DNA of 64,000 nucleotides from Halobacteria archaeon HArc-gm2 (GTDB lineage Archaea; Halobacteriota; Halobacteria; Halobacteriales; Haloarculaceae): contig JAOPKE010000005.1 in the NCBI GenBank assembly GCA_025517465.1, positions 186,001 through 250,000 on the forward strand, written 5' to 3'. This document shows, one piece after another, positions 8,298 through 36,513 of the stretch. Position numbers and translations under genes: made by a program. Below the pieces are notes generated by a model. It had not been told where the DNA came from, did no database searches, and saw only the letters and a program-made list of their open reading frames with translations. Within the stretch, counting starts at the first letter, position 1; the number at the start of each line of letters is the position of its first letter.

Positions 8298-8615
8298 CCA
8301 CGTCGCTGGCGAGGATGCTGCGCCCTCGCTCCGCTCAGGCTCGACCTGTTCGCGGGTCACGATGTTCCCCGCTCGCTGAAACGTCGGCCCCTCCCTGCGG
8401 TCGGCGGCAGCCTGCTCGCGTGTCGCTCACTCCGTTCGCTCCCGCTCGCTGAACCGTCGGCCCCTCACTTCGTTCGGCGCCGGCCTGCTCACGGCTCGCT
8501 CCGCTCGCCGTTCACCATTAGCTGGGCCCTCCCTTCGGTCGGCCCCAGCCTGCTCACGGGTCACTCCGTTCCCCGCTCGCTGAAACGTCGGCCCCTCACT
8601 TCGTTCGGCGCCGAC
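8298..8615. repeat. Degenerate ~73-bp repeats with covarying hairpins
   Basis: Gene-free stretch upstream of adk. The anchor CGCTCGCTGAAACGTCGGCC recurs at 8370, 8443 and 8574 (73 and 131 bp apart), with a diverged unit from about 8520. Units carry stem-loops at the same place: GTCGGC/GCCGGC in the 8455 unit, GCTGGGCC/GGCCCCAGC at 8521-8549, GTCGGC/GCCGAC in the last unit, which runs on to about 8636 into the next gene's 3' end. The stem sequence changes on both sides together. Trailing boxes (TGCTCACGGGTCACTCCGTT) are also shared. No protein fits the stretch. Confidence 0.7.
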
Positions 8616-14981: not shown

Positions 14982-15434
14982 AGAAAGCCCTCGGCGGGCT
15001 CCGGTCCCGGGGCTCGCTGCGCGCGCTCGTTCCTCGCGTGCTTACGTCGCCCGGGTTCCCGGAGCCCACCTCGCCCTTTCAGTCCTCCAGGCACCGCAGC
15101 CCTGCCCTTCCCCTGGTCGCGAGAGCCTCGCTTTCGCTCGGCTACTCGCTCCCGGCCGGGCGGTTGCCGAGCGGTCAGGAAGCGTGATTCGGCGCGGACG
15201 CGCCGAATTCGGGGAGGGGTGGTGGAGTCAATCGCGAGCGCGTTTTATCGCGCGAGCGATGCTGTTCCTGGTGGACTGAAAGGGCGAGGCGCGGTCGACG
15301 TAGCACGGCGACGCTAGCACCGCAGCGGAGCGAGGAGCGCAGCGAGCCGCGCGAGTCGAGCGCGCCGAGGGCTTTCGAAGCGGAGCGAGGAGCGCAGCGA
15401 GCCGCGCGAGTCGAGCGCGCCGAGGGCTTTCGAG
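14982..15434. repeat. Composite structured repeat, copy 1
   Basis: Two inverted arms around a conserved core. The left arm (about 14984-15090, read on minus) runs from CCTGGAGGACTGAAAG to GGGCTTTC; the right arm (15268-15378, plus) from CCTGGTGGACTGAAAG to GGGCTTTCGA, and its last ~53 bp are duplicated at 15381-15434. Each arm has boxes CTGAAAG-GGCGA and GAGGG-CTTTCGA enclosing a private stem: GGTGGGCTCC/GGAGCCCGCC on the left, GGCGCGGTCGAC with GTCGAGCGCGCC on the right. The core shares CACCGCAGCCCTGCCCTTCC and GGTCGCGAGAGCCTCGC with copy 2 at 20.6 kb. It also has a 10-bp perfect hairpin, ATTCGGCGCG/CGCGCCGAAT. No ORF. Confidence 0.85.
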
Positions 15435-27289: not shown

Positions 27290-27592
27290 TCATCCCTCCG
27301 CGACCGGATCCGTTTCCCAGCCGATCCGCCAGCCGCGATAGAGGGCGTAGACGCTCGCCAGAGCGGCCAGGAGTGAGAGAGCGTCGACGACGTGGTTGAC
27401 CGTCGTTCCCGACGCTATCGGGCCACCGATCGAGAGTCCGTTGAGCATTGCCGAAACGCCGGCGAGCAAGAGGCCCGCGCTGAACATCGCCCGTCCGGTG
27501 GAGACCGCGTCTCGCCGGTACCGGATGCCGACGATGAGAGCCACGAGGACGGTCAGTAGAAGCGCGAGCACTGCACCGATGACTGGGGCCAT
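27290..27592 (-). CDS. Small membrane protein, unknown function
   Basis: 100 residues with three hydrophobic segments (about 4-24, 35-55 and 68-86) and a short acidic end (WETDPVAEG). Consistent with the numerous uncharacterised haloarchaeal membrane proteins. It lies alone between rfcL and the giant surface gene; the 282 bp between it and rfcL hold no recognisable gene. Confidence 0.6.
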   Translation of the reverse strand: MAPVIGAVLALLLTVLVALIVGIRYRRDAVSTGRAMFSAGLLLAGVSAMLNGLSIGGPIASGTTVNHVVDALSLLAALASVYALYRGWRIGWETDPVAEG

Positions 27593-27719
27593 AGCTCCGT
27601 TATCGCCGCACGGCCGGAAAGGAATTTCCGATCCACAGGAGGTCTCGCGTGGTTTCGCGCTGTTGCGTCCCTGTATCGCTCGGCGTGACCACGTTTCGAT
27701 GTGTCCGGAGCGGGCTGTC

Positions 27720-30700
27720 TCAGCTTTCGTCCCCCGTGGCGGTAGTCGGCGTCGTGGACGGTGTCGTCGGTTCCTCGGTCGACGTCTCCGTCTCCTCCGG
27801 CGTCGGCGTCGGCGTGTCCTCAGGGGTCGGCGTCTCGGTCGCTTCTGGCGTCGCAGTTTCCGTCGGCGTCGGGCTGTCCGTCTCGGTCGCCGTTTCCGTC
27901 TCCGTCGGCGTTTCGGTCTCCGCGGGCGGTTCGAGCAGGCCCGGGACGTCGGCGGCGGTCGGCCCGGCCGACGAGACGTTCAGCAGGTCGAAGTTCGAGA
28001 GGTTCAGCGTCCAGGTGACCGACTCCGCCGTGGACACGGGCGTCCACTCGACGACGACGAAGTTCGGGCCGGCGTCGAGCACTGCGGGCGGTTCGCCGGC
28101 GACGGCACCGCTGGTGAACTGACTCTCGGCCGGTTCCATCGGTGCGTCGTTGGGGTTCTCGTAGCTGAAGTTGACCAGCGCCGTCTCGTTGTCGACGACC
28201 TCGACTTCCTCACTGGCGAGGGTCGGCAGTTCGGGACGGACGTCCTCGCGGCACTGCTGGGCGTTCGGCTGTGCGACCGAGAGGTCCTCCTGGCCGGTCG
28301 GACTCGCCGAGGTGTTCACGTTCGCGACGAAGCTCCGGTTCTCGTCGCCGAACGCGCCGGGGTCCGAAAGCTGGATCACCAGCGTGCCATCCCCGGTCAC
28401 CGTCGTCTCGTTCTGCTCGCCGACGGTGACGACCGTCTGGCCGTCGACCGGGCGGTCGGTCGGGACGTCGACGGGCGTCCAGACGTATTCGCTCGTCGCG
28501 TTCCCGTCCTCGGCGTAATAGCCGAGCGTGACGCTGAGGCGGTCGTAGCTCCCGTCGACCTGTGCAGTGGTGCAGTTCAGGAACTCCACGCCGGGTTCGG
28601 CCTCGGCTTCGACCGTGAGCGTCCCCGTCGCGTTGTCCGCTGGCGTGAACACGCCGTGTTCGTACTCGCCGGGTGCGAGGCCGCTCGTGTCGACGTCCTC
28701 GAAGGTGACGTTCGACGAGTTACCGGCGTCGAGTTCGAGTTCCTGGTCGGCCACTGTCGTCCCGTCGATCCGGAGTTCAACGGCCTGGGTGGCGGACTCG
28801 CCGCCGACGTTTTCGACCGTCGCGGAGACGTTGATCGCCTCGCCCTGGCTGACGTTCGCTTCGGCGGGGGCCAGGTCAGAGACGGAGAACGAGGCCGGTG
28901 CCTCCTCGGACTGTGCCAGGACGTACACTCCGTCCGCTGTCAGGGTGGTCTCGACGCTTCCGTTGGCGTCGCCGGCGTCGAACGTCTCCACCTGGGTCCA
29001 CTCACTCCCGTCGTGGCGCCACAGTTCGACCTCGGCGTCGGGGTCCGCACCCTGGTACGCCAGCGTCGCGTCGGTGCTGTTCTCGAGTTCGGTGACGTTG
29101 AGCCCGTCCTGAATCGCCGTCGCGTTCTCGGGGAGCGACGGGAGTTCGTCGCGGTCGACGACGTCGAGCGTCACGGCCTCCTCGTCGAACGCCAGCGAGC
29201 CGACGGGGGCCAGTCGCAGGTCGGTGGCCGTGAACGGTCCGGGCTCGAAGCCGGTGTCACGCGGGTTGAGCTCGGCGTCGGTGTGGTTCCGGACGGTGAC
29301 GTTGTCGAGCGTCTGGGTACTGATGAAGTTCGAGCTGATCCCGGCGCCGTCGTTGTCCGCGACCAGCGAGTCGCGCACGACGTTCTCGGCGCTGTCCGAG
29401 AAGTGGATCCCGGTCTCGCCGTTGTCGGCGACGACGAATCCGGAGAGCGTGTTGCCCGACGCGCCGACGCCGACGAAGACGCCCTCCAGCCCGTTCCCGC
29501 TCGCGTTCACCTGGCTGAACTCGCTATCCTGGACCAGATCCCAGAGGTGGAGCCCGTACCCGTCGTTGGCGGAGGCGTCGATCCGCTCGAACGTCACGTT
29601 CTCCGTCTCCCAGAGGCGGATCCCGGCACCGTTCCGGGTGGACGAGACGTTCTCGAACTCTGTCCCGCTGGCGCTGACGAGGAACGCACCGTTGCCGTCG
29701 TTCTCGGTTATCGTGACGTTCTCCAGTCGGGCCTGTGCCGGCACGTCGTCGCTGAAGTTGCCGATTTCGACACCGTTGTTCCAGTTCCGGACTTCGAGGT
29801 TCCGGACCGTGACGTTCTCGACGTCGTTCCCGTCGGGATCGTACGTCTGGATCCCGGTGTTGTTCTCCCCGCCGTCGCCGACGAGGGTGCTGTCGTTCCC
29901 GTCTATCACTACGTCGCTGGCTTCGATCCTGAGACAGACGCCGTCGATGTCTCCCTCGACGTCGCCCGCCAGTTCGTACTGGCCGGCCTCGTCGACGACG
30001 GTACAGGAGTCGATGGTTCGCTCACCGTCCTCGGGTGGTTCCGCACCCTCGACGGTGATTTCGTGTTCCGTCTCGCCGTTCACCGGGACGGTCGTGCCGT
30101 CGTCGGCCACCGCGGTCAGCGTGTAGTTCCCGGGCTCGAACGCCGCCGTGACGTTCGTCTCGGGACCGACGTCGACGGTCCGGTTCGCCGCCTCGCTCGC
30201 GTTCGCGTCCGTCGCGTTCGCGGTGACCGTCACGGCCACGTCGTTCGGGTTGTCGACGGTGACGTTCTCACCTTCGACTGTGACGTTCAGGCTGTCGACG
30301 TCCTCGTCGGGTTCCGCGACCTGTACGTCCAGGGCCGACTCGTTCTCGAGGAGCACCTCGCGCTCGTCGTCGCTCTCACCCGTCAGCGTGTAGTTTCCGG
30401 GCTCGAACTGCTCGGTGACGTTCGCACCGGCGCTGACGTTCAGGGTTCGCTCGCCGTCTGACTCGTTCGTCGCGGTGACCGTGACGTTGGTCCCGCTCGG
30501 ATTCTCGACGGAGACGTTCTGCCCGCTCACCGAGACGTTTAGATCGATGGGTTCGTCCGGTTCTGGCAGTGGTGCTTCTGAGACGTTCACCGTCAACTCC
30601 GCCTGGCCGTCAAGGGTCACGGTGCGGTTGTCGGCGGCCGAACCAGTGAGTTCGTAGGTTCCGGGATCGAACGCTTCCGTGACGTTCTCGCCGCCGGGCA

Positions 30701-32969
30701 CGTCGACGGTCTGCTCCGAATCGTTCTCGTCGGTCGCCGTGACCGTCACGGTCGTCTGGCTCGGGTTGTCGAACGAGATGTTGCCACTACTGACGGTGAC
30801 GTTCACGTCGACGGGTTCAGGAGGTTCCGGGGGCGTGTCGGGGGGGTCCGCGGACTCGATACTGAACTCGAAGGCGTCCTGATCGTTTATCTGGACGGCC
30901 GTGCCATCGGTGGTCTCCGCCGTCGCCGTGTAGTTCCCGGGGCCGAACGCTCGGGTCAGGTCCCAGTCGGCGGGCACCTGGAACGACGTCTCCTCGTCGC
31001 CGGTGACCTCGACGGTGACGCGCTCGTCGTTCGGGTTCGCGACCGAAAGGCTCCCGTTCTCGACGCTCGCGGTCAGGGACTGCAGCGCGTCCCCGACGGA
31101 GACGGTCAGTTCCGCCCGGCCCGCGAGCTCCACGTCCTGGCCGTCGGCGGTCTCGGCGGTGAGGGTGTAGGTTCCCCGGTCGCGCTGGAGGTTCGTCGAC
31201 TCGCCGGGTGCCAGCGTCACCGTCTCCACGTCGCCGTCGTCACTCGTTATCGTCACCGTCACGGCGACGTCGTTGGGGTTCGCGAGGAAGATGGTCTCGC
31301 CCTCCGCCGAGGCGAAGAGGCTCCGGAGCTGCTCGTCGCCGTCGTCCGCGCCGTCCTGCCCGTCGTCGGGGTCCTGGGCCGATCCCTTCGCGTAGTTGTA
31401 TATCGTCACGTCCACGTCGACGTTCAGCTGCGCGGCGGTCCCCGCGGTGTCGGAGGCAGCCCGCCGGGTGACGATCTGCGTCTGCTCGACGGTGACTTCC
31501 TGGCGCTGGGTCAGCGCGAGCGACCCTTCGGAGGCCCCGCGGGCGGCCGACTGGATCTGGACGACGTTGGCCGTCTGGTGTTGCGACAGCGCTCCGCCGG
31601 CGGCGCTCTCGCTGATGATCTGGATCTGGACGATGTTGATCTCCTGGATCTGGATGACTGTGCCCTGGCCGGCGCCCGCTGCGGCGGCCTGGATCTGTTC
31701 GACGTTCACGACCTGGCTCTGGGCGGCCGAGCTGGCGGCGCCCTTCGCGGCGCCGGTTGCGGCGTACTGTATCTGGGTGATACTGACTGACTGGGACTGG
31801 ACGAGCACGCCCTTCGCCGCGCCGGTCGCCGCGTGCTGGATCTGGGTGACGCTCGCCGTCTGGGACTGGCTGATGGCGCCCTTCGCCGCGCCGTATGCGG
31901 CCGACTGGATCTGGCTGACCGACACCGACTGGCTCTGTTCGAGCGTGCCCTTGCAGGCCCCGCGTGCGGCGGCCTGCACCTGCTCGACGGTGACTGCCTG
32001 TTGCTGGGTGACCGATAGCGCACCCTCGGCGGCGCCCATCGCAGCCACCTGGATCTGCTTGACAGACGCGGTCTGGCGCTGCTCGACCGCGACGGACTGG
32101 TTCTGGCTGAGCGCGCCCTCCGCGGCGCCGACCGCCGCGGACTGGCGCTGCTCGACGGAGACGTTCTGCGTCTGGGTCAGCGCGCCGAAGGCCGCGCCCT
32201 GGGCCGCTTCACGGATGGCGCCCGGGTGAGCTTTCTCCCGCGACTCGTTCTCGTCGCGCTTGCCCGCCTCGTGGGCCGCGCCCGCCGCCGCGCCCTGGGC
32301 GACGACCTGGACCTGTTCTATCGTCGCGTTCTGCCGCTGGGCGACGGCGCCGTGGGTCGCACCGAAGGCGGCGTGCTGGAGCTGGGTCGCGCTCGCGTTC
32401 TGGTACTGGGAGAGCGCGCCGCCGGCCCCGCCGGCCGTCGCGTTCTGGACCTGCTCGACGCTGACGTTCTGGCTCTGGAGGAAAGCCCCGGTGACCGCGC
32501 CGTAGGAGGCGTTCTGGACCTGTTCGACCGAGGCGTTCTGGTGCTGGGCCACCGCGTCGACGGTCCCGTTGACCGCCGCCGCGCGCTGGGTCTGGTTCAC
32601 CGAGACGCCTTGCCGCTGGAGCGCCGCGACGGCCTCGTCGACGCCCTCCTCCGCGGCCTCGCGTTTCTCCCCGTCGACCGTCTCGTTAGCTTCTGTCTGG
32701 CCGACCTGCGCCGGAGGGGTGGTCCACTGCTCGTCCGTCGGGGGGCCGTCCGTTGGCGGACCGTCCGTCTGCTGGGCGGGCCCGTCCCCGACGTTCGCCG
32801 GCGGTGCGTCGGCGACACTTTCCACGGGTGCTGCCCCCACTCCCCCGATCGCCATCGGGGCCGAGACGCTGAGGACCATCACCAGCGTCACGGCGACGAC
32901 TGGCCACCTGCGTGCGACCCGGTGGGCGCGTGTTCGCGGCTCTGTCGCTCCGTCGTCGTGCGATTCCAT
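27720..32969 (-). CDS. Giant secreted protein: glutamine-ladder repeats, Ig-like repeats, beta-helix
   Basis: 1749 residues. N-terminal Sec-type signal (RRWPVVAVTLVMVLS, then APMAIGGVGAAP). Residues about 118-500 are about 15 copies of a 23-residue repeat: a beta-like half (QSQSVSVSQIQ) and a small-residue half (SAAYGAAKGAIS), with Gln at fixed positions 1, 3, 9 and 11. Residues about 549-960 hold five Ig-like repeats sharing NPNDVAVTVT and FEPGNYTLT. About 965-1215 is a NosD-like right-handed beta-helix (IDGNDSTLVGDG, ENVTITENDGNGAFLVSA). A CARDB-like domain (AEANVSQGEAINVSATVENV) follows, then a Thr/Glu/Pro-rich tail ending TTPTTATGDES. There is no PGF-CTERM anchor. Sequons are very frequent. 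Probably a surface or extracellular-matrix protein; no function proven. Confidence 0.85.
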   Translation of the reverse strand: MESHDDGATEPRTRAHRVARRWPVVAVTLVMVLSVSAPMAIGGVGAAPVESVADAPPANVGDGPAQQTDGPPTDGPPTDEQWTTPPAQVGQTEANETVDGEKREAAEEGVDEAVAALQRQGVSVNQTQRAAAVNGTVDAVAQHQNASVEQVQNASYGAVTGAFLQSQNVSVEQVQNATAGGAGGALSQYQNASATQLQHAAFGATHGAVAQRQNATIEQVQVVAQGAAAGAAHEAGKRDENESREKAHPGAIREAAQGAAFGALTQTQNVSVEQRQSAAVGAAEGALSQNQSVAVEQRQTASVKQIQVAAMGAAEGALSVTQQQAVTVEQVQAAARGACKGTLEQSQSVSVSQIQSAAYGAAKGAISQSQTASVTQIQHAATGAAKGVLVQSQSVSITQIQYAATGAAKGAASSAAQSQVVNVEQIQAAAAGAGQGTVIQIQEINIVQIQIISESAAGGALSQHQTANVVQIQSAARGASEGSLALTQRQEVTVEQTQIVTRRAASDTAGTAAQLNVDVDVTIYNYAKGSAQDPDDGQDGADDGDEQLRSLFASAEGETIFLANPNDVAVTVTITSDDGDVETVTLAPGESTNLQRDRGTYTLTAETADGQDVELAGRAELTVSVGDALQSLTASVENGSLSVANPNDERVTVEVTGDEETSFQVPADWDLTRAFGPGNYTATAETTDGTAVQINDQDAFEFSIESADPPDTPPEPPEPVDVNVTVSSGNISFDNPSQTTVTVTATDENDSEQTVDVPGGENVTEAFDPGTYELTGSAADNRTVTLDGQAELTVNVSEAPLPEPDEPIDLNVSVSGQNVSVENPSGTNVTVTATNESDGERTLNVSAGANVTEQFEPGNYTLTGESDDEREVLLENESALDVQVAEPDEDVDSLNVTVEGENVTVDNPNDVAVTVTANATDANASEAANRTVDVGPETNVTAAFEPGNYTLTAVADDGTTVPVNGETEHEITVEGAEPPEDGERTIDSCTVVDEAGQYELAGDVEGDIDGVCLRIEASDVVIDGNDSTLVGDGGENNTGIQTYDPDGNDVENVTVRNLEVRNWNNGVEIGNFSDDVPAQARLENVTITENDGNGAFLVSASGTEFENVSSTRNGAGIRLWETENVTFERIDASANDGYGLHLWDLVQDSEFSQVNASGNGLEGVFVGVGASGNTLSGFVVADNGETGIHFSDSAENVVRDSLVADNDGAGISSNFISTQTLDNVTVRNHTDAELNPRDTGFEPGPFTATDLRLAPVGSLAFDEEAVTLDVVDRDELPSLPENATAIQDGLNVTELENSTDATLAYQGADPDAEVELWRHDGSEWTQVETFDAGDANGSVETTLTADGVYVLAQSEEAPASFSVSDLAPAEANVSQGEAINVSATVENVGGESATQAVELRIDGTTVADQELELDAGNSSNVTFEDVDTSGLAPGEYEHGVFTPADNATGTLTVEAEAEPGVEFLNCTTAQVDGSYDRLSVTLGYYAEDGNATSEYVWTPVDVPTDRPVDGQTVVTVGEQNETTVTGDGTLVIQLSDPGAFGDENRSFVANVNTSASPTGQEDLSVAQPNAQQCREDVRPELPTLASEEVEVVDNETALVNFSYENPNDAPMEPAESQFTSGAVAGEPPAVLDAGPNFVVVEWTPVSTAESVTWTLNLSNFDLLNVSSAGPTAADVPGLLEPPAETETPTETETATETDSPTPTETATPEATETPTPEDTPTPTPEETETSTEEPTTPSTTPTTATGDES

Positions 32970-34260: not shown

Positions 34261-36513
34261 ATGGGACTCGACGAGGACGCCCTCGACTACCACAGTAGCG
34301 ACCCGCCCGGCAAGATCGCCATCTCGACGACGAAGCCGACGAGCACCCAGCGGGACCTCTCGCTGGCGTACTCTCCGGGGGTCGCCGCCCCCTGCCGGGC
34401 CATCGACGAGAACCCCGACGACGTCTTCACCTACACTGCCCGGGGGAACCTCGTCGCCGTCGTCTCGGACGGTTCCGCGACGCTGGGGCTGGGAGACATC
34501 GGTCCAGCGGCAAGCAAGCCCGTCATGGAGGGCAAGGGCGTCCTGTTCAAGCGCTTCGCCGACATCGACGTCTTCGACGTGGAACTGGACGTCGACGGCG
34601 TCGACGAGATGGTGAACACCGTCCGGCCGATGGAACCCACCTTCGGCGGTATCAACGTCGAGGACGTCGCCGCCCCGGAGTGTTTCGAGATCGAGCGGCG
34701 GCTGAGCGAGCAGATGGACGTGCCGGTGTTCCACGACGACCAGCACGGGACCGCCATCATCTCTGGCGCGGCGCTGCTGAACGCGGTGGACATCGCCGGC
34801 AAGGAACTCGCTGACATCGACGTCACGTTCGCTGGCGCGGGCGCCGCGGCGCTGGCCTCGGCCCGGTTCTACGTCTCTCTCGGCGTCGACCCCGAGAACG
34901 TCACCATGGCCGACGAGGGCGGGATCATCACCGAGGCCCGCGTCGAGGAAGAGGGCCTCCACGAGTACGTCGAACCCTTCGCCACCGAGGGCGAAGGCGG
35001 GACGCTGGCCGACGCGATGGAGGGTGCGGACGTGTTCGTCGGCCTCGCGGTCGGCGACATCGTCGACCAGGAGATGGTCCGGTCGATGGCCGACACGCCC
35101 ATCCTGTTCGCGATGGCGAACCCCGACCCGGAGATCGGCTACGTGGACGCGAAGAACGCCCGCGAGGACACCGTCATCATGGCGACTGGGCGCTCCGATT
35201 ACCCGAACCAGGTCAACAACGTCCTGGGATTCCCGTTCATCTTCCGCGGCGCGCTGGACGTTCGCGCGACGGACATCAACGAGGAGATGAAAGTCGCCGC
35301 TGCGGAGGCGCTCGCCGACCTGGCCCGCGAGGACGTCCCGGACGCCGTCGTCAAAGCGTACGGCGACGACCCGTTGCAGTTCGGCCCCGACTACATCATT
35401 CCGAAACCCCTCGACTCTCGGGTCCTGTTCGAGGTGACCCCCGCGGTTGCCGAGGCCGCCATGGAGACCGGCGTGGCCCGCACCGACGTCGACCTGACCA
35501 CGTACGTCGAGGAACTGGAGGCCCGTCTCGGGAAGTCCCGCGAGATGATGCGCGTCGTCCTCAACAAGGCCAAGAACGACCCCAAGCGCGTGGTGCTGGC
35601 CGAGGGCGACGACGAGAAGATGATCCGCGCCGCCGCCCAGCTCGTCGACCAGGGCATCGCCGAACCGGTCCTCATCGGCGACCGTGACCGGATCGGCGCC
35701 ATCGTCGAGACGCTCGGCCTCGACTTCGCCCCCGATATCGTCGACCCGGCGGAGGGCGACCTGGCGGCCTACGCCGACCGATTGTACGAACTTCGGAAGC
35801 GCAAGGGGGTCACGCGCCACGAGGCCGGCAACCTCGTCGAGGACGGCAACTACCTCGGCAGCGTGATGGTCGAGATGGGGGACGCCGACGCGATGCTGAC
35901 CGGCCTGACCAACCACTACCCGTCGGCGCTGCGCGCACCGCTGCAGGTCGTCGGCACCGCGCCGGAGGCAGAGTACGCCGCCGGCGTCTACATGCTGACG
36001 TTCAAGAATCGCGTCGTCTTCTGTGCCGACGCGACCGTCAACACCGACCCCGACGCGGAGGTCCTGGCCGAGATCACCCGTCACACCGCCGACCTGGCCC
36101 GCCGGTTCAACGTTGAACCGCGCGCGGCGATGCTGTCGTACTCCGACTTCGGGAGCGTCGACAGCCCGGGCTCACGAAAACCCCGTCGCGCCGCGGAGCG
36201 ACTTCGGAACGACCCCGCGGTCGACTTCCAGGTCGACGGCGAGATGCAGGCCGACACGGCCGTCGTCGAGGACATCCTCGCCGACACCTACGAGTTCTCG
36301 GACCTGGACGGGCCGGCGAACGTCCTCGTCTTCCCCAACCTCGAAGCGGGCAACATCGCGTACAAACTGCTCCAGCGTCTGGGCGGTGCCGAGGCTATCG
36401 GTCCGATGCTCGTCGGCATGGACGAACCCGTCCACGTGCTCCAGCGCGGCGACGAAGTGAAAGACATCGTCAACCTCGCGGGCGTGGCGGTAGTCGACGC
36501 ACAGAACGAGTAA
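34261..36513 (+). CDS. maeB: NADP-dependent malic enzyme with phosphotransacetylase-like C-terminus
   Basis: 750 residues, the size of MaeB-type fusions. N-terminal about 420 residues are malic enzyme, decarboxylating malate to pyruvate: [55 protein letters not shown] and the Rossmann [12 protein letters not shown]. The C-terminal about 320 residues resemble phosphotransacetylase ([60 protein letters not shown]); in characterised MaeB proteins this part is regulatory, binding acetyl-CoA, rather than catalytic. It stands alone with its own promoter. Confidence 0.95.

Follow-up and report, generated by a model that had tools for sequence, protein, structure and literature searches.

Alpha/beta solenoids such as the leucine-rich repeats are built from strand-helix units of 20-29 residues and carry a conserved amide ladder. 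In curlin, a repeat is on average 23 +/- 5 residues long, and an arc links its two N-$-Psi-$-Psi-$-Q kernels (PMC10192328). Among archaea, the sheath protein SH of Methanospirillum hungatei is amyloid-like, with two six-stranded sheets and six beta-arches of differing side-chain composition (PMC10593813), and a 2012 survey mentions one archaeal protein with regularly spaced curli-like repeats (PMC3521004). Both Congo red and ThT are reported to stain H. volcanii biofilms, and HVO_1403 is mentioned there only as a candidate gene (PMC4180959). Here we compare these systems with a glutamine-rich repeat encoded in a stretch of 64,000 nucleotides from Halobacteria archaeon HArc-gm2, which we refer to as the window.

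The protein and its repeat array

The repeat lies in an ORF (27720-32969, minus strand, ATG start) whose product of 1749 aa consists, in order, of a signal-like N-terminus, a linker, the array, an Ig-like region, a beta-helix and a Thr/Pro-rich tail (Table 1). The signal region has a basic n-region with RR, the hydrophobic stretch VVAVTLVMVLSV and small residues followed by AP. Relatives also begin with a hydrophobic segment, and nearly all family members carry an N-terminal hydrophobic or Tat-like signal as judged by sequence and hydropathy; with such export-signal-like N-termini the repeat proteins are probably exported. The acidic cap before the first unit is kept in relatives as DAVExGVxEGIxL, and the charged insertion with its degenerate unit (HEAGKRDENES...EAAQGAAFGALT) has counterparts at the equivalent location in relatives. 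In the Ig-like region the C-terminal domain of PF05506 scored 25.6 bits (cut-off 24.4) and the remaining Ig-like models fell under their cut-offs, while the beta-helix domain was recognized by PF13229 (E 3.9e-14) and by TIGR03804 above its cut-off. Neither a membrane segment nor a PGF motif was found in the C-terminal tail. The C-terminal parts differ between members, which carry DUF7282, CARDB or beta-helix domains and in a few cases a C-terminal membrane segment.

Table 1. Features of the repeat-bearing protein, in window coordinates
Feature	Residues	Position	Strand	Basis
N-terminal signal region	1-47	32829..32969	-	sequence; hydropathy 2.26
Acidic helix-like cap preceding unit 1, EKREAAEEGVDEAVAAL	101-117	32619..32669	-	alignment A1
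Repeat array, ~15 units x 23 aa	118-510	31440..32618	-	motif counts; kept in relatives
Charged insertion and degenerate unit	234-265	32175..32270	-	alignment A1
Extra 8-aa half-unit QNQSVAVE	289-296	32082..32105	-	unit spacing 8
Ig-like segments rich in Asn-X-Ser/Thr	560-973	30051..31292	-	PF05506 C-terminal domain
Right-handed parallel beta-helix domain	1050-1218	29316..29822	-	PF13229, TIGR03804
Thr/Pro/Glu-rich C-terminal tail		27723..27926	-	sequence; hydropathy -1.04

The initial annotation had described units with Gln at positions 1, 3, 9 and 11, a Val/Ser half and an Ala/Gly half, and this description proved accurate. It had also placed the array at about residues 118-500; the approximately 15 units of 23 residues are present there, with the end of the array slightly beyond, at about residue 510. 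The motif QxQ.....QxQ occurs 16 times within residues 118-500; 2000 shuffles gave 0.3 on average and never more than 4. The identity at lag 23 is 0.364, whereas the top value over lags 5-79 in any shuffle is 0.195. In the remaining 1249 residues of the protein QxQ is not found at all. Exact motifs start at residues 118, 142, 165, 188, 211, 266, 289, 297, 322, 345, 368, 391, 417, 440, 463 and 488, the close pair 289/297 resulting from a doubled half-unit of 8 residues (QNQSVAVE preceding QRQTASVK). Such 8-residue doublings of the QxQxVxVx half were seen in 18 cases, with the spacing of 8 found in the window as well as in the relatives L002 and L003. The commonest unit spacing is 23 (221 cases), and spacings of 24, 25 and 26 result from additions within the Ala/Gly half. 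Asn-X-Ser/Thr sequons recur in the repeat region of the window and lie mostly at unit position 6 in relatives; some of them may be glycosylated.

The array has the consensus QxQx[VA]x[VI]xQ[IVL]QxAAxGAAxGA[LV]x. A set of 1481 distinct units (Neff about 300) gives the pattern Q1 x Q3 x V/A5 x V/I7 x Q9 I/V10 Q11 x A13 A14 x G16 A17 A18 x G20 A21 L22 x, with conservation biased upward at the ten positions used for unit calling (1, 3, 5, 7, 9, 10, 11, 13, 16 and 20). Independently of single-unit calling, a whole-domain alignment of 20 relatives showed the Gln and Gly columns to be mostly invariant or nearly so.

Two long plus-strand open frames, 31396-32229 (277 aa) and 27396-30461 (1021 aa), lie opposite the gene of the repeat protein. 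We rejected the first, which faces the array, as a gene and regard it as a shadow of the coding frame; counterparts of it face relatives of the gene elsewhere too, in other genomes, as is expected for shadow frames in GC-rich coding DNA. Elsewhere in the window we noted a perfect tandem duplication of 55 bp at 15324-15433 (AGCGGAGCGAGGAGCGCAGCGAGC...), an imperfect tandem repeat of 65 bp in 3.6 copies at 8367-8612, and a phosphate acetyl/butyryl transferase domain fused to malic enzyme at 34261-36513.

Distribution, selection and family status

A search for homologues showed that the repeat domain is no one-off: of the Halobacteria genomes sampled, 109 of 391 carry it, as do 35 of 86 genera. 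Among genomes sampled from the order it is present in 119 of 392, and in a phylum-wide draw all 20 matches fell within that same order. Its presence is near-universal in one family (103 of 125 genomes, 26 of 29 genera), which we take to be the Natrialbaceae since named Natronorubrum loci nest in it; the window's own family has it in 14 of 146 genomes. The tree built from 43 repeat domains agrees with the families for the most part, with some exceptions. One copy is located on a Halobaculum plasmid and annotated as a hypothetical protein. We noted a fragment-like copy of 269 aa, apparently truncated, on the plasmid-sized Halobaculum contig (L057:8679-9485 on G223:C3). At L052 and L060 there are shorter, divergent paralogues that have fewer repeats and Tat-like signal sequences. 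Viral contigs and phage records held no copy of the repeat domain, and we rejected a viral origin on this basis.

The repeat domain is under purifying selection, with dN/dS of 0.14 within the genus and 0.32-0.33 at greater distance. Together with the shuffles and the conservation in relatives, these values rule out a chance or low-complexity artefact. Sequence searches of Pfam, NCBIfam and the PDB retrieved no relatives of the repeat, and neither a known repeat family in Pfam nor a solved structure in the PDB matched it in sequence, leucine-rich repeats included. The domain is kept in most Natrialbaceae genomes and scattered through other haloarchaeal families, and has no name, family model or structure.

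The array could be a largely disordered Gln/Ala/Gly spacer or stalk, as its low-complexity composition and the low confidence of both structure models described below would allow. Such a spacer is nevertheless very unlikely, as it would sit poorly with near-invariant Gln and Gly positions, with an array architecture kept across genera and families under purifying selection, and with a very low charge in spite of exposure to brine.

Comparison with curlin and the fold of the unit

The resemblance to curlin noted in the initial annotation held for the period of 23 and proved closer than had been recognized there, since it includes the kernel layout of positions 3-9. Of 1940 units, 82% read Q-$-Psi-$-Psi-$-Q at these positions, a figure that is partly by construction since the core positions 3, 5, 7 and 9 were used in unit calling. 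Both systems share the mean period, outward positions that are polar, and a strand kernel in which a polar amide is followed by two hydrophobics, small or branched, and by a Gln that closes it; they also share secretion, which for the repeat is predicted. The resemblance did not extend further. The second kernel, which makes the curlin unit a beta-arch, was found in only 2% of units, and this absence is unaffected by the choice of unit-calling positions; the unit has an Ala/Gly half with AAxGAAxG. The kernel is opened by Gln where curlin (CsgA/CsgB) has Asn or Ser, additional Gln residues stand at positions 1 and 11, and the proteins carry large extra domains. Profile comparison with CsgA of E. 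coli K-12 gave hhalign probabilities of 0.04% with A1 and 0.17% with A3. The curlin repeat family PF07012 gave no match at E<=1 in the protein or 20 relatives and none in its own genome and 19 relatives, with a positive E. coli control.

We also looked for a curli-like export partner. CsgG was found in none of 20 genomes (its own and 19 relatives), with controls positive in 4, and no neighbour gene was common to most relatives. Haloarchaea have no outer membrane, so the absence of CsgG is expected and has little bearing on fibre formation. At nine Natrialbaceae loci (L002, L039 and L061 among them) the relative adjoins genes resembling a BioY/ECF transporter, with ATPase and permease, as judged by eye; this is not an export system and we rejected it as a partner.

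Within the unit, the two halves differ in their periodicity. Variability over positions 1-11 alternates strictly by two residues (entropy power 0.89 at 180 degrees vs 0.09 at 100 degrees), while positions 12-23 show a periodicity of 3-4 residues (0.54 at 95-100 degrees). Applied to 938 unit triples of 127 proteins (Neff 206) and bootstrapped over proteins, direct-coupling analysis gave a corresponding picture: at positions 1-9 couplings at separation 2 reached 1.69 [1.27,1.92] vs 0.24 at separation 3, and at positions 12-23 those at separation 4 reached 0.83 [0.60,1.15] vs 0.28 at separation 2. The strict alternation would place Gln1, Gln3, Val5, Val7 and Gln9 on the inward face of an extended strand formed by positions 1-9. 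From their periodicity and i+4 couplings, positions 12-23 would be a short helix that has a wide face of Ala and Gly as well as a single variable polar face at positions 12, 15, 19 and 23. Periodicity and couplings support a unit that is strand in its first half and helix in its second, although the AlphaFold2 models described below are contradictory and of low confidence.

Couplings between units suggest how these halves may pack. Helices of units n and n+1 gave 0.24 [0.11,0.35] on the antidiagonal vs -0.12 [-0.24,-0.02] on the diagonal; the strongest inter-unit pair was 21-14' (bootstrap 3.9-5.8), with 13-22', 13-20' and 16-18' close to its antidiagonal. Strands of units n and n+2 were coupled in register at 0.82 [0.27,1.13] vs 0.10 for n and n+1, a value not clearly over the phylogeny null; the in-register n/n+2 pairs were 3-3, 1-1, 4-4, 19-19 and 22-22. 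Parallel in-register packing of adjacent units was weakly disfavoured. Two of the pairs make physical sense: D6-K8, which is exposed, and G21 with C/T/S14', in which size is compensated. In a null simulating phylogeny, imperfectly matched with an Neff of 61 vs 188 in the data, only 21-14' (z 5.5), 16-18' (z 3.1) and the n+2 pair 16-20'' (z 4.6) clearly exceeded expectation. As few pairs survive this stricter null, whose Neff was lower, we offer the packing as a suggestion: strands may stack in register at a period of 46 residues, with two units per structural period and Gln ladders along the stack, and adjacent helices may pack antiparallel through Ala/Gly contacts.

The same couplings, antiparallel for n/n+1 and parallel for n/n+2, can be accommodated by an all-alpha solenoid with one helix of about 17 residues per unit (positions 7-23), alternating antiparallel helices in two layers, and a cap at position 6, where T, S, N or D, typical of helix caps, is found in about 79% of units. 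An AlphaFold2 model from 4 orthologues was indeed all-helix, with 18 helices or about one per unit (pLDDT 49.9, pTM 0.40), and block pLDDT rose above 70 over model residues 21-80. Its mean confidence is low, though, and it is contradicted by a second model from 13 rows of internal repeats, which was nearly all-strand (pLDDT 37.6, pTM 0.22). Being of low confidence and contradictory, both models were set aside as evidence for the fold. A loop would not be expected to alternate by two residues, as positions 1-11 do, and to conserve Gln1, Gln3, Val5, Val7 and Gln9. We consider an all-alpha solenoid unlikely.

Alternatively, the array could be a functional amyloid of the curli type or a cross-beta solenoid, in which strands with the Q-$-Psi-$-Psi-$-Q layout are stacked amyloid kernels, the Ala/Gly half serves as a second strand or long arc, and matrix fibres arise by polymerization. 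The period, the Gln ladder, the curlin-like kernel with Gln replacing Asn and the in-register n/n+2 coupling agree with this; a small inward face could also arise from the even-numbered positions in the Ala/Gly half, and the 13-row model drew strands, at worthless confidence. There is archaeal precedent in the dye-stained biofilms (PMC4180959) and the sheath protein (PMC10593813). SH, which we compared by description and PDB sequence search, is likewise archaeal and extracellular with stacked strands proposed, but it does not have the 23-residue Gln repeat. Against an amyloid stand the scarcity of a second kernel, i+4 rather than i+2 couplings at positions 12-23, the absence of CsgA profile similarity and of CsgG and curlin families from 20 genomes, and the large C-terminal parts of most members as opposed to curlin subunits. 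We judge this reading unlikely overall, though the array may yet be a true cross-beta amyloid.

Low charge and the proposed rod

A strongly acidic composition is usual among the secreted proteins of haloarchaea. In the repeats, however, Asp and Glu make up 1-11% of residues, vs mostly 14-42% after the repeats (4.8-9% after the repeats in Haladaptatus-type relatives). For a predicted secreted haloarchaeal protein, such a low charge suggests a compact or assembled structure.

Our preferred reading, held tentatively, is that the strand-helix repeat forms a stiff, charge-poor, Gln-ruled extracellular rod that acts as a surface or matrix scaffold for the C-terminal parts. Lying close to the N-terminus of a secreted protein, the rod would hold and space large acidic, Ig-like or beta-helix parts outside the cell, a location and role that we infer from the architecture. 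A formal parallel would be the alpha/beta solenoids, with which the repeat would share a short strand-helix unit and a conserved amide ladder. It differs from leucine-rich repeats in its Gln/Val/Ala/Gly pattern, where they have Leu/Asn, and in couplings that suggest two units per structural period. One difficulty is that a single straight solenoid does not easily accommodate strands spaced at 4.8 A together with helices separated by about 7.5 A or more.

The repeat protein may also polymerize. It is conceivable, if unlikely, that the repeat represents a new fold, nearly universal in Natrialbaceae, in which half-curlin strands and Ala/Gly helices alternate and two 23-residue units make up one rung, giving a Gln-ladder rod that possibly polymerizes into an amyloid-like matrix fibre and keeps its fold in brine with few acidic residues. 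An acidic content of 1-11% raises the direct question of how the array remains in solution, or whether assembly is its purpose, and in the species that carry it the repeat is a testable matrix candidate.
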